From contig CANLHE010000014.1 of assembly GCA_947490605.1 (NCBI GenBank), positions 1 to 10,090 of the forward strand: a stretch of DNA of 10,090 nucleotides, written 5' to 3'. Source of the stretch: Actinomycetota bacterium. Its GTDB lineage: Bacteria; Actinomycetota; Actinomycetes; Nanopelagicales; Nanopelagicaceae. The notes below the pieces were generated by a model, which saw only the letters and a program-made list of their open reading frames with translations, ran no database searches and was not told the DNA's origin. Shown here piece after piece: positions 4,758 to 8,147 of the stretch; position 1 is the stretch's first letter, and each line of letters opens with the position of its first letter. Position numbers and translations under genes: made by a program.

Positions 4758-6452
4758 GTGAGCCAGACCGGTCAGATCAGAGTAGCGCTAGCGCAGATCA
4801 ATCCCACTGTTGGAGATCTGAAAAATAATAGCGATCTAATATCTAAGCACGCCTTTGATGCGGCCAATGCTGGCGCAGTTGTAGTTGTATACCCAGAGAT
4901 GATTTTAACTGGCTATCCAGTTGAGGATTTAGCAAACCGGCCCTCATTTAGAGCAGCCTCCATTAATGCAATTAATGAGTTAGCGACGCGAATTAATAAT
5001 GAAGGAAATGGTGATTTAACTTTAATCGTTGGCTTTTTAGGCCAAAGTGATGCAGGCAAGCCACAAAATTGCGCAGCGGTAATTCATCAAGGCGCGATTG
5101 TTGCCACCTACATCAAACACCACCTACCTAATTACGGCGTCTTTGATGAGTATCGAAACTTCACACCCGGCAATCATTCATTGGTTGTAAGAGTTTGTGG
5201 CGTTGATATTGGAATTGCAATTTGTGAGGATATTTGGCAATCAGGTGGGCCGGTAGCAGAGCTAGCAAAGCGAAACATCGGCTTGATGCTAGTTCCAAAT
5301 GGATCACCCTTTGAGATCAATAAATATGATGCAAGGTTGGCACTTGTGCAACAGCGGGCAATTGAGATTGGCGCACCTCTTGCTTATGTAAATATGACTG
5401 GGGGAGCTGATGATTTAGTTTTTGATGGCGACACTATTGTGGTCGGCTCTGCTGGAGAGGTAATTGCACGGGCTCCACAATTTGAAGAGGGCTTAATGGT
5501 GATTGATCTAGATGTGCGCATCTCCTCTAGTGATCCAGATTTAATTATCTCTAATCCACCAATTTTAAAGTATGAAAAGATTAAAACTGGTGTAGCTGGA
5601 AGGCTTGGTGAAAATGATGAGATCTGGCAGGGGCTAGTACTTGGCCTGCGAGATTATGTTGAGAAAAATAATTTTAAATCAGTTCTCCTTGGTGTCTCAG
5701 GTGGAATTGATTCAGCCTTAGTTGCCGCCTTAGCAGCCGATGCGATTGGGGCAGATCGGGTATTTGGTGTGGCACTTCCAAGTAAGTACTCATCTGATCA
5801 CTCATTAAGTGATGCCAAAGAGTTAGCTTCTAATATTGGTTTAAATTATCGAATCATTGAGATTGCCCCGATGGTGGCAAACTTTATTGAGAATCTAAGA
5901 GTTGATGGGGTAGCAGAAGAGAATCTGCAGGCCAGAGTTCGCGGAACTACCTTGATGGCGCTTTCAAATCAAGAAGGTCATTTAGTTCTTGCCACCGGAA
6001 ATAAATCCGAGTTAGCAGTTGGTTACTCAACAATGTATGGCGATGCCGTTGGTGGCTTTGCGCCAATTAAAGATCTCTATAAAACTCAAGTTTGGCAGCT
6101 AGCTAAGTGGCGTAATGAGTTAGCAGTTCTGCAAGGAGATACTCCGCCAATTCCAGTTAACTCAATTAATAAGGAGCCAAGTGCTGAGCTTCGCCCGGGG
6201 CAAAAAGACACCGATTCACTTCCTGATTACAAAGTATTGGATCAGATTCTTACTATTTATATCGATCAAGATGGGGGTCGTCCTGCTGCGCTCGCGGCCG
6301 GCTTTGATGCTGATCTGGTAGATAAGGTAGTTCGATTAGTAGATCGGGCTGAATATAAGAGAAGGCAGTATCCACCAGGAACTAAAATCTCAAGCCGGGC
6401 TTTCGGTAAGGATCGAAGGTTGCCGATTACCTCACATTGGAATGAGTCTTAA
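4758..6452 (+). CDS. nadE: Glutamine-dependent NAD+ synthetase
   Basis: A 564-residue two-domain enzyme that makes NAD+ from nicotinic acid adenine dinucleotide with ATP, using ammonia released from glutamine. The N-terminal nitrilase-type glutaminase domain (about 6-265) has the complete Glu-Lys-Cys triad: E47 in VYPEM, K120 in YIKHHLPNYGVFDEYR, and C156 in AICEDIW. The C-terminal synthetase domain (about 275-560) has the ATP pyrophosphatase loop SGGIDS (314-319), the ATGNKSE segment (412-418), and YSTMYGDAVGGFAPIKDLYK (423-442). The length fits the shorter bacterial glutamine-dependent type rather than the longer (about 680-residue) mycobacterial one. The start is GTG at 4758, and the sequence that follows (QIRVALAQINPTVGD) aligns with typical family N-termini. 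It stands alone between the divergent panB and the cysK leader. The glutamine it consumes could come from the nearby glnA product. Confidence 0.97.
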   Translation: MSQTGQIRVALAQINPTVGDLKNNSDLISKHAFDAANAGAVVVVYPEMILTGYPVEDLANRPSFRAASINAINELATRINNEGNGDLTLIVGFLGQSDAGKPQNCAAVIHQGAIVATYIKHHLPNYGVFDEYRNFTPGNHSLVVRVCGVDIGIAICEDIWQSGGPVAELAKRNIGLMLVPNGSPFEINKYDARLALVQQRAIEIGAPLAYVNMTGGADDLVFDGDTIVVGSAGEVIARAPQFEEGLMVIDLDVRISSSDPDLIISNPPILKYEKIKTGVAGRLGENDEIWQGLVLGLRDYVEKNNFKSVLLGVSGGIDSALVAALAADAIGADRVFGVALPSKYSSDHSLSDAKELASNIGLNYRIIEIAPMVANFIENLRVDGVAEENLQARVRGTTLMALSNQEGHLVLATGNKSELAVGYSTMYGDAVGGFAPIKDLYKTQVWQLAKWRNELAVLQGDTPPIPVNSINKEPSAELRPGQKDTDSLPDYKVLDQILTIYIDQDGGRPAALAAGFDADLVDKVVRLVDRAEYKRRQYPPGTKISSRAFGKDRRLPITSHWNES

Positions 6453-6479
6453 TTAATTTTAAGCGTGGTTTAAGAACAC

Positions 6480-6492
6480 GCAAACTGTTTGC
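6480..6492. promoter_or_regulatory. Palindrome upstream of the cysK leader promoter, operator-like
   Basis: GCAAAC-T-GTTTGC is a perfect 6-bp inverted repeat around one central base. If transcription starts at 6531, its centre lies at about -45, a usual place for an activator site. The half-site GCAAA also occurs in the palindrome at 2511-2524, but there the two halves meet without a central base, so the same protein need not bind both. Confidence 0.4.
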
Positions 6493-6518
6493 AATTAGTG
6501 ATTAATAAAGATCTTTCC

Positions 6519-6524
6519 TATTAT
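6519..6524 (+). promoter_or_regulatory. -10 box of the cysK-cysE leader transcript
   Basis: TATTAT is a near-consensus -10 box ending six bases before the ATG at 6531, so the leader ORF would begin at the first transcribed base. No SD sequence precedes that ATG. A convincing -35 is lacking (TTAGTG at 6495-6500 is the nearest, with an 18-base spacer). Confidence 0.55.
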
Positions 6525-6530
6525 TTACCC

Positions 6531-6629
6531 ATGGCTCACTCAACTAACCAACTTATTACAATCAAACGTTGGTACTTCACCCGTTGCCGGGTAGTTGATT
6601 TTGCACGCGTAACCTCAACTAGTTGCTAA
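6531..6629 (+). CDS. Putative cysteine-responsive leader peptide upstream of cysK
   Basis: A 32-codon ORF, ATG to TAA, in the gap before cysK. Its C-terminal half reads RCRVVDFARVTSTSC and ends in Cys-stop, with another Cys at position 19. From memory, many actinobacterial genomes carry short annotated leader peptides with an Arg-rich start, a VDxxRV core and a Ser-x-x-Cys end ahead of sulfur and cysteine genes; this ORF shares that spacing. Mycobacterial Cys-rich leaderless upstream ORFs are known cysteine-responsive attenuators, so ribosome stalling at the UGC codons when cysteinyl-tRNA is scarce is a reasonable model here. It would be translated without an SD from a leaderless start. Two stretches of its own codons can pair with each other (see the attenuator entry). 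The peptide probably has no function after synthesis. A chance ORF cannot be excluded without comparison to relatives. Confidence 0.65.
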   Translation: MAHSTNQLITIKRWYFTRCRVVDFARVTSTSC

Positions 6630-6678
6630 GGCAAAAACCTTTTTTCTTGGGCATAGCCCATCTGTTTTACCTGCCTTA
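6540..6678 (+). promoter_or_regulatory. Candidate attenuator RNA with mutually exclusive stems before cysK
   Basis: Several complementary segments are visible. TCAACTA occurs at 6540-6546 and 6615-6621, and both can pair with TAGTTGA at 6592-6598, so only one stem can form at a time. ACCAAC (6547-6552) pairs with GTTGGT (6568-6573), and ACCCG-TTGC-CGGGT (6579-6592) is a compact hairpin. TAAGGCA (6627-6633), which contains the leader stop codon, pairs with TGCCTTA (6672-6678), continued by AAAAC/GTTTT (6634-6638 with 6664-6668) and enclosing TGGGC-ATA-GCCCA (6648-6660). A competing small hairpin AAGG/CCTT (6628-6631 with 6638-6641) runs into T6 (6640-6645) and could be a weak terminator. A ribosome stalled at the final Cys codon would cover the TAAGGCA strand. 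No T-box or known metabolite riboswitch motif was recognised. The pairings are seen in the sequence; their function is inferred. Confidence 0.45.
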
Positions 6679-6712
6679 AAAATTACTTAAATCAAACCTA
6701 CAAGGAGAATAT

Positions 6713-7639
6713 ATGAAAATTTATAACAATATAACTGAAGTCTTTGGTAACACCCCGTTAGTAAAGCTAAACAAGATTATGACTAACTCCAGTGCAACTG
6801 TGCTGGCAAAGCTTGAGTTTTATAACCCAACCTCAACTGTTAAGGATCGCTTAGCAATTGCGATGGTGGATGCGGCTGAAAAATCAGGTGCACTAAAGCC
6901 TGGTGGCACAATTGTTGAGGCAACTAGTGGAAACACCGGTATTGCACTTGCAATGGTGGGAGCAGCTCGCGGTTATAAAACTATTTTGACGATGCCTGAG
7001 TCAATGTCTAGTGAGCGCAAAGCATTACTTAGAGCATTTGGCGCAGAGTTAATTTTAACTCCAGCAGCTGAAGGCATGAGGGGTGCGGTAGCGCAAGCTG
7101 AAACTTATAAGGATTCTGGCGCTGTCTACGTTAGCCAATTTGAAAATGAGGCCGGCCCTGAGATTCACCGCCGAACAACTGGTGAGGAAATTTGGCGAGA
7201 TACCGATGGCACAGTTGACGCAGTTGTCTCTGGTATCGGTACAGGTGGCACAATCACTGGCGTTGGCCAATTATTAAAATCTAAAAATCCTGCGATAAAA
7301 ATATTTGGTGTTGAACCGGCTGCCTCACCGATTTTAAATGGTGGCGATCCTGGTAAGCATCCTTTGCAAGGTATTGGTGCAAACTTCATACCACCAGTTT
7401 TAGATAGAAAAATCTATGATGAAATTTTTGATGCTGATGCTGAAATTGCTGTTAAGTATGCTCGCGAGGCTGGCACCAAAGAGGGAATTTTAGCTGGGCT
7501 CTCATCAGGTGCTGCGCTTTGGGCTGCGCATCAAGTAGCACAACGGCCAGAGTTTGCTGGTAAAACTATTGTGGTAATCATTCCTTCCTTTGGCGAGCGA
7601 TACCTATCCACAATTTTATTTGCAGATTTGAATACCTAA
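6713..7639 (+). CDS. cysK: Cysteine synthase (O-acetylserine sulfhydrylase)
   Basis: A PLP enzyme that converts O-acetylserine and sulfide to L-cysteine in the cytoplasm. Its 308 residues match the CysK family (about 310). The PLP-binding lysine is K44 in NPTSTVKDR; the substrate loop TSGNTG is at 71-76; the phosphate-binding GTGGT is at 176-180; the serine that contacts the pyridine nitrogen is in AGLSSGAA (261-268); the family tail SFGERYLST is at 292-300. The ATG at 6713 has AAGGAG five bases upstream. cysE begins one base after the stop codon, so the two genes form a tight operon in which the acetyl donor enzyme and the synthase are made together and can form the cysteine synthase complex. 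The upstream Cys-ending leader ORF suggests control by cysteine supply. The canonical motifs favour O-acetylserine over cystathionine beta-synthase activity. Confidence 0.96.
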
Positions 7640-7640
7640 A

Positions 7641-8147
7641 TTGCTGCACCGAATTACTGAAGATATTAAGGCCGCACTTAGGCAAGATCCGGCTGCGCGC
7701 AATTGGCTTGAGGTGTTACTTACCTATCCCGGTTTGCACGCAGTTTGGGGATATCGGATTGCCCATTTCCTGTGGAATCTTAAATTAAAGTTAATTGCCC
7801 GGATCTACTCACATTGGATAAGGGCGGCAACTGGAGTAGAGATTCATCCCAACGCAAAGATTGGTAGAAGATTTTTTATCGATCACGGCATGGGGGTAGT
7901 AATTGGGGCAACTGCAGTAGTTGGTGATGATGTAATGATTTATCACGATGTAACACTGGGTGCTCGAACTAATGATGCTGGCAAGCGCCATCCAACTATT
8001 GGAAATAATGTGGTGATTGGATCTGGGGCAAGAGTTTTAGGTGATATTAATATTGGCGAGGGTGTTCGGATTAATGCCAATTTAGTTGTCACTAAAAGTG
8101 TTCCGGCCCGCACGATGGTGGATTCATCGGAGTTTTTCGCTATCTAA
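7641..8147 (+). CDS. cysE: Serine O-acetyltransferase, short type
   Basis: It acetylates serine with acetyl-CoA to O-acetylserine, the substrate of CysK. The 168 residues correspond to the short form found in Bacillus and Actinobacteria, without the long N-terminal helical part of E. coli Cys[28 protein letters not shown] (8-34) is the conserved N-terminal segment. The left-handed beta-helix follows, with catalytic H82 in IDHGMG and H117 in GKRHPTIG. The start is TTG at 7641, one base after the cysK stop, with no SD; translation is likely coupled to cysK. Unusual points: TLGA replaces the common TLGG, IGAT replaces IGET, and the usual VGVPA-type end is replaced by [11 protein letters not shown]. 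The protein still ends in Ile, the residue that enters the CysK active site in known complexes. An intact reading frame and active-site His residues argue for a working enzyme. Confidence 0.93.

Follow-up and report, generated by a model that had tools for sequence, protein, structure and literature searches.

A conserved short reading frame ending in a cysteine codon ahead of cysK in Nanopelagicales, a probable cysteine-responsive leader peptide

Does the 32-codon open reading frame (ORF) that lies between nadE and cysK in a 10,090-nt stretch of DNA from a streamlined freshwater actinobacterium of the Nanopelagicaceae (hereafter, the window) encode a leader peptide through which the supply of cysteine governs the genes for its synthesis? 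The ORF follows the NAD-synthase gene nadE and directly precedes the cysteine operon cysK-cysE; a place ahead of a cysteine or sulfur operon is common to it and to leaders of the NF042933 type. The features on which the question turns are these:

6519 to 6524, plus strand: TATTAT, putative -10 box (6-7 nt TAnnnT-to-start spacing in relatives)
6531 to 6629, plus strand: ORF of the leader peptide (32 codons plus stop), on a probably leaderless mRNA
6624 to 6626, plus strand: TGC, terminal Cys codon, the presumed sensor codon
6702 to 6707, plus strand: AAGGAG, Shine-Dalgarno site of cysK, from the sequence
6713 to 7639, plus strand: cysK, cysteine synthase A (TIGR01139, 425.6 bits, above cut-off)
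7641 to 8147, plus strand: cysE, serine O-acetyltransferase (TIGR01172, 229.9 bits, above cut-off)

The leader ORF and its occurrence in relatives

The predicted peptide, MAHSTNQLITIKRWYFTRCRVVDFARVTSTSC, runs from an ATG at 6531-6533 to a TAA at 6627-6629. It includes two Cys codons, Cys19 (6585-6587) and Cys32 (6624-6626), the latter being the last sense codon. Six bases (6525-6530) separate the TATTAT box from the ATG, 83 nt lie between the leader stop and the start of cysK at 6713, and cysE begins one base past the end of cysK. The length of 32 codons, the spacing of the box, the distance to cysK and UGC as final sense codon had all been described in a first-pass annotation of this DNA, and they held when the coordinates were rechecked.

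In the ORF listing, the same frame opens at an upstream TTG (6489) and encodes 46 aa. In 72 of the 73 leader-bearing genomes, a TAnnnT sequence is located 6 nt (49 genomes) or 7 nt (23 genomes) ahead of an in-frame ATG (61) or GTG (11), chance expectation being about 14%; the sole genome without TAnnnT at the set distance is G099 (locus L170). As this spacing is conserved relative to the in-frame ATG or GTG, the TTG start is disfavored and ATG 6531 is preferred. The spacing probably corresponds to the layout of a leaderless mRNA, which we term putative. A -35/-10 consensus scan of positions 6400-6800, which demands a -35 hexamer, gave 0 sites; the putative promoter is hence recognised only from the -10 box and from its constant spacing to the start codon. 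No minus-strand ORF of at least 20 aa overlaps the leader in the ORF listing for 6300-6800. The window peptide has no Pfam or NCBIfam family match, and known structured RNAs were looked for in the window without an Rfam hit at gathering threshold. Far from the leader, a 75-aa ORF on the minus strand (2127-2354) with repeated Lys/Arg/Ala-rich units (AAKAAPKRRRRKK) was judged by eye to resemble a histone-H1-like tail protein.

A CysK search of genome contigs yielded 80 loci, the nearest of which include MAGs labelled Candidatus Nanopelagicaceae, Actinomycetota or Actinobacteria. Five out of ten inspected loci (L001, L002, L003, L005, and L021) carry behind the nadE end an ORF of the form W-x-FTRRR[VI]IDFGRA, with Cys at or near its terminus. 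A profile made from six leaders was run against 151 genomes of the order to which G004 (the genome of L005) belongs. At the loose threshold of E<=1, at least 141 of them match, and many strong matches lie directly upstream of cysK. CysK was found at E<=1e-100 in 65 of 101 sampled genomes of the order, and 49 of these 65 have a leader ahead of cysK, with the consensus W-x-FTR-x-R[VI][VI]DF...C.

Leaders were detected by a scored motif scan; strict motif scans miss the window and one sister clade. With the scored scan, a leader was located upstream in 76 of the 93 distinct rows with CysK identity >=70%. These 76 rows represent 73 distinct genomes, the window counted as one, some rows being two loci of one genome. 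When a motif test for nadE was combined with leader detection, 73 of the 93 upstream rows showed both nadE and leader, 17 neither, 3 the leader without nadE, and 0 nadE without the leader. Among the 17 rows with neither is L218, scored as having no leader though only 45 nt are present upstream before the contig end. Absence of the ORF from relatives, which had been named as a point against it, was found in 16 of the 65 cysK-bearing genomes; the rows that have no leader are also without upstream nadE, and cysK therefore occupies another neighborhood there.

Selection on the leader was estimated from 68 distinct cores. The pN/pS ratio was 0.286 in the leader frame vs 1.334 and 1.619 in the other two frames, and in the window's clade of seven it was 0.276 vs 1.395 and 1.148; as the counts are pooled pairwise over related sequences, these ratios carry no formal p value. 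Conservation of codons with synonymous substitutions, anticipated for relatives ahead of cysK, was thus found as purifying selection in the leader frame only (0.29 vs 1.33 and 1.62). The residues W (66), F (67), T (66), R (65), R (64), and D (68) are kept across the 68 cores, while third positions vary. Judged by these comparisons of sequence, 6531-6629 is a real, selected leader ORF. The window CysK is 99% identical to those of G096 (L167) and L105 (G121). When the window was set beside L167, the leader N-termini were seen to be almost wholly different and FTR-x-RVVDF-x-R-x-TSTSC to be common to both.

Cys ends the leader in 53 of the 73 genomes, is followed by one residue in 14 and by two in 6, so that it falls within the last three residues in all 73. 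At least two Cys are present within the last six residues in 60 of 73 leaders of the order; the leader of the window carries a single Cys at its end, with no polycysteine run. Position 19 is R or N in 66 of the 68 cores and C in 2. Of the two Cys codons to which a role had been ascribed, the terminal one is hence conserved, whereas Cys19 is not and was dropped as a sensor codon.

RNA hairpin, spacer and the output step

The transcribed region between the leader start and cysK includes three further features:

6579 to 6592, plus strand: hairpin P1, ACCCG-TTGC-CGGGT, over codons T-R-C-R-V (stem scan and synonymous-site covariation)
6630 to 6712, plus strand: spacer from leader to cysK, poor in G and rich in C/U, where Rho might load
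6648 to 6660, plus strand: terminator-like hairpin TGGGC-ATA-GCCCA, then TCTGTTTT (window, p=0.12; the order as a whole does not conserve it)

P1 takes the general form ACxCG-NNNN-CGzGU over codons T-R-x-R-V. Four of its five pairs are dictated by the amino acids, and the fifth links two synonymous third positions. In the window, the U-rich stretch spelt by V-D-F was seen by eye to end ten bases past P1 and to be followed by G. With G-U counted as a match, the two bases of the fifth pair are complementary in 39 of the 47 distinct V-type cores vs 22.8 on shuffling, and this pair is the strongest of the third-position pairs tested (z 5.26, the next being 2.31). After clustering of the cores, pairing was retained in 26 of 32 at 95% identity, 18 of 22 at 90% and 11 of 13 at 85%. 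Complementarity at this pair is seen in only 3 of 14 I-type cores, in which the amino-acid change breaks adjacent pairs. On a CysK tree of 68 rows, with ties resolved toward paired states, 30 P1 events were reconstructed. V-type lineages show 5 double changes from one paired state to another, four of which lead to A-U, and 7 losses of pairing, which weigh against strict constraint. As a whole, the leader region (200 nt) has only a mild folding advantage over shuffled sequence (z -1.78). We suggest that P1 could act as an RNA polymerase pause hairpin.

The spacer that follows the leader has a G content of 0.109, and C exceeds G in 70 of 73 rows. In the 60 nt upstream this is so in 34 of 73 rows, and ahead of cysK genes that have no leader in 10 of 16. 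In control gaps, C exceeds G in 48 of 102 (G content, 0.224), against 39 of 41 leader gaps analyzed by the same method. The spacers of the leaders found before DUF4395-like and rhodanese-like genes (see below) are poorer still in G (0.061), with more C than G in all 18. Within the cysK set, the first ten bases past the leader stop already have a low G content (0.09). Rho is present in the seven genomes, out of seven, that were checked. Rho loading beside the leader stop codon would fit such a G-poor spacer, and we put it forward tentatively.

A different output would be translational attenuation, in which the Shine-Dalgarno region of cysK is sequestered by leader or spacer RNA and is freed by a ribosome stalled on the Cys codons, the sensing being the same. 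Translational attenuation of Cys leaders is reported for mycobacteria, specifically M. smegmatis, in passages of PMC13236596 and PMC9031893. Among relatives of the window, leader codons are paired with the Shine-Dalgarno region of cysK in the consensus fold of one sister clade, represented by 13 rows. Simulated stalling makes that region more accessible, by over 0.1, in 17 of the 70 rows that have a recognisable Shine-Dalgarno string. Nevertheless, accessibility drops by more than 0.1 in 6 of the 70, including the window (0.51 to 0.25), and leader-to-Shine-Dalgarno duplexes that beat shuffled leaders at p<=0.05 are confined to 3 of these rows (median p 0.475). The predicted folds hence do not point to systematic masking of the Shine-Dalgarno site in window-type leaders such as is reported for mycobacterial ones; masking was set aside as the output, and translational attenuation appears unlikely here.

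Attenuation at an intrinsic terminator is less probable again. It would have a stall at Cys32 refold the RNA, so that the small GC-rich hairpin at 6648-6660 fails to terminate. Two terminator-like sites were obtained in the scan of 6400-6800 vs 0.2 in shuffles, and a GC-rich hairpin with a U-containing tract is present in several members of the window's clade (L105, p=0.05; L168, p=0.02; L169, p=0.10). Against this, the U tract of the window is interrupted, p values are 0.12 in the window, 0.12 in L167, 0.22 in L100 and 0.61 in L170, and comparison with shuffles over 73 rows gives p<=0.05 in 6 and p<=0.1 in 16 (median 0.56). An intrinsic terminator is therefore suggestive in the window's clade only, and was discarded as general output. 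As neither a conserved terminator nor Shine-Dalgarno masking was found, a Rho-type output is favored, weakly.

The Cys residues might also matter as residues and not as a gauge of tRNA, the product then being either a small protein with a function of its own or a nascent chain that senses, for instance, free cysteine or redox state. The near-invariance of W, F, T, R, R, and D in the 68 cores goes beyond what codon counting needs. However, the N-terminal part varies freely even at 99% CysK identity, and both the sulfur-related genes behind the leader and the position of Cys at its very end suit a stall site, which leaves such a function improbable, slightly more so than the terminator. Short ORFs are common and the window peptide taken alone has no family match, but frame-specific purifying selection and wide conservation reduce the probability of a chance ORF to practically nil.

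We consider that the ORF very probably encodes a cysteine-responsive leader peptide controlling cysK; that cysteine is sensed and cysK attenuated to some extent, whatever the output step, is likely. In the mechanism that we propose, the supply of charged Cys-tRNA would set cysK-cysE expression by means of the leaderless leader peptide 6531-6629. Ribosomes would initiate at the 5′ AUG and, under cysteine shortage, would come to rest at the terminal UGC codon or codons, perhaps with help from the conserved R-x-R-V-[VI]-D-F nascent chain. In that position the ribosome, lying over the stop codon and the first spacer bases, would hinder premature termination, most likely that by Rho. With ample cysteine, the ribosome would be released, the bare C/U-rich spacer would load Rho, and transcription would stop ahead of cysK. 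P1 may pause RNA polymerase, letting the ribosome keep pace. The Rho step is proposed on spacer composition only; a stalled ribosome would mask just the first dozen or so spacer bases, and G-poor RNA may have another cause. TnaC of E. coli combines a conserved nascent peptide, a halt at the end of its ORF and Rho-controlled read-through, and it halts at a high level of its amino acid. It is taken as a working model only, the opposite sign being expected for the cysK leader, and no sequence kinship is claimed.

Kinship to known leader peptides

The peptide had been likened to actinobacterial leaders ahead of sulfur genes, and this likeness was corroborated: NF042933, NF042936, and NF042934 all match relatives of the leader, in each case below cut-off. 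NF042933 (leader_Ms5788A; cut-off, 45 bits) gives 29.3 bits for a rhodanese leader, 24.0 for a DUF4395 leader, 15.7 for the L005 cysK leader and no match for the window. NF042936 (leader_Ms4527A) likewise matches relatives below cut-off only, and NF042934 (cis_reg_atten; cut-off, 27 bits) gives 18.0 and 13.4 bits for two relatives and none for the window. A polycysteine leader from another family of the phylum, L235, scores 47.3 bits with NF042933, above cut-off. The core [KR]R-x-x-D-[FL]-x-R is common to the window-type leader and to polycysteine leaders such as this one. The proposal of a different, non-polycysteine type consequently stands in part: the window lacks a Cys run, but the core is shared and 65 of the 73 cysK leaders hold 2-4 Cys within the counted stretch.

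Above its cut-off, NF042934 was found in 0 of 5 genomes of the order (at a loose threshold, 10 of 14 controls also match) and in 0 of 6 other actinobacterial genomes; across the phylum, among the matches listed, it passes in 6 of 149 genomes vs 0 of 14 controls. Downstream genes were named for only some of the passing loci, in part by eye. At L235 they are a DUF4395-like gene paired with a sulfurtransferase-like one. L238, L244, and L253 have cysK/M-like genes at a distance of 384-401 nt downstream, and L237, L252, and L254 have probable sulfite/nitrite reductases (NCBIfam fragment match, far below cut-off).

A 2005 study (PMC1262725) predicted Cys leader ORFs ahead of cys operons in Mycobacterium and P. 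acnes and ahead of cbs in B. longum; its relevant part describes no terminators and suggests Rho. Those leaders are like the present ones in their Cys codons near the stop, in having no conserved terminator and in the authors' suggestion of Rho. They differ in their runs of Cys codons and in lineage, and that part of the paper gives no covarying hairpin. Other excerpts describe a Cys-rich short ORF with ribosome occupancy ahead of cysA2 (PMC4633059) and the cysteine response of Cys-rich leaders in M. smegmatis, a result of Canestrari et al. (2020) as cited in PMC9094748, PMC9031893, and PMC13236596. Eight leader peptides of S. lividans, none named for cysteine, figure in an excerpt of PMC8079986. 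Our literature search returned, among the papers listed, nothing relevant by title on Nanopelagicales leader peptides, and no paper on Ms5788A, which does not imply absence from print.

The mycobacterial Cys-rich leaders (NF042933 and NF042936) and those studied here have in common a sulfur or cysteine gene behind, the [KR]R-x-x-D core and a C-terminal Cys, and the spacing of the -10 box would suit a leaderless layout here as well. Unlike them, window-type leaders show the W-x-FTR-x-R extension, a hairpin within the coding region and scores below cut-off, and the window is without a polycysteine run. The NF042934 leaders are similar in being short peptides with an R-x-x-D-x-x-R....C pattern before sulfur-related genes, and dissimilar in that their cut-off is not reached here. 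The cysK leader is most likely a new branch of the known actinobacterial Cys-leader kind, lying below present NCBI models.

Further leader loci, a putative operator and significance

Twenty further loci, taken from the six-leader profile matches listed, were examined for downstream genes. The next gene is DUF4395-like in 14 of them (L147-L149, L151, L154, and L158-L166; by Pfam for one, 92 bits, and by eye for the rest). It is followed by a Fur-like gene (Pfam for one) or, in two, by a sulfurtransferase-like gene (Rhodanese, Pfam for one). In the other six (L150, L152, L153, and L155-L157), a rhodanese-like gene comes next, then a putative sulfur-transport gene (Pfam fragment match, below cut-off); all six belong to genomes without CysK at E<=1e-100. 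Upstream of the leaders, one more element recurs:

6480 to 6493, plus strand: palindrome GCAAACTGTTTGCA, putative operator, beginning 51 nt ahead of the leader ATG

A palindrome-like match starts 48-54 nt ahead of the start codon in 74 of 75 cysK-leader rows; at 15 of the 18 distinct leaders of the DUF4395 and rhodanese types, the distance is 48-52 nt; L155-L157 show no -10 box or palindrome at the usual distance. The window on its own is unremarkable, with one site vs 0.22 expected and at least one in 33 of 200 shuffles. When one exact pattern of palindrome, TAnnnT and ATG was searched for, six sites in three genomes were obtained, five of which are leader starts; the reversed control pattern gave 0. 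The palindrome at 6480-6493 is probably the site of a transcription factor acting above the leader, and we refer to it as a putative operator. As a separate observation, the sixth site (L267, from position 1501, in G027) lies ahead of a gene that looks CopC-like by eye.

A more elaborate reading, which we hold to be doubtful, is that the T-R-x-R-V core is doubly coded, serving as nascent-chain element within the exit tunnel and as polymerase-pausing hairpin, and that one terminal Cys codon, with no need of a polycysteine run, would therefore be enough to gate Rho at the G-poor spacer; the shared upstream operator would then complete a small two-layer cysteine regulon. If this were true, the regulon of Nanopelagicales would consist of cysK-cysE, the DUF4395 operon, and rhodanese with sulfur transport.

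The leader described here would extend cysteine leader peptides to the streamlined order Nanopelagicales (acI lineage), and reveals a branch of leaders uncalled by present NCBI models. P1 is a new, testable feature of this branch, and a second regulatory layer probably lies above the leader. One peptide core connects the polycysteine and non-polycysteine leader types, and natural variants with 1-4 Cys would make the roles of codon, nascent chain and RNA hairpin separable.
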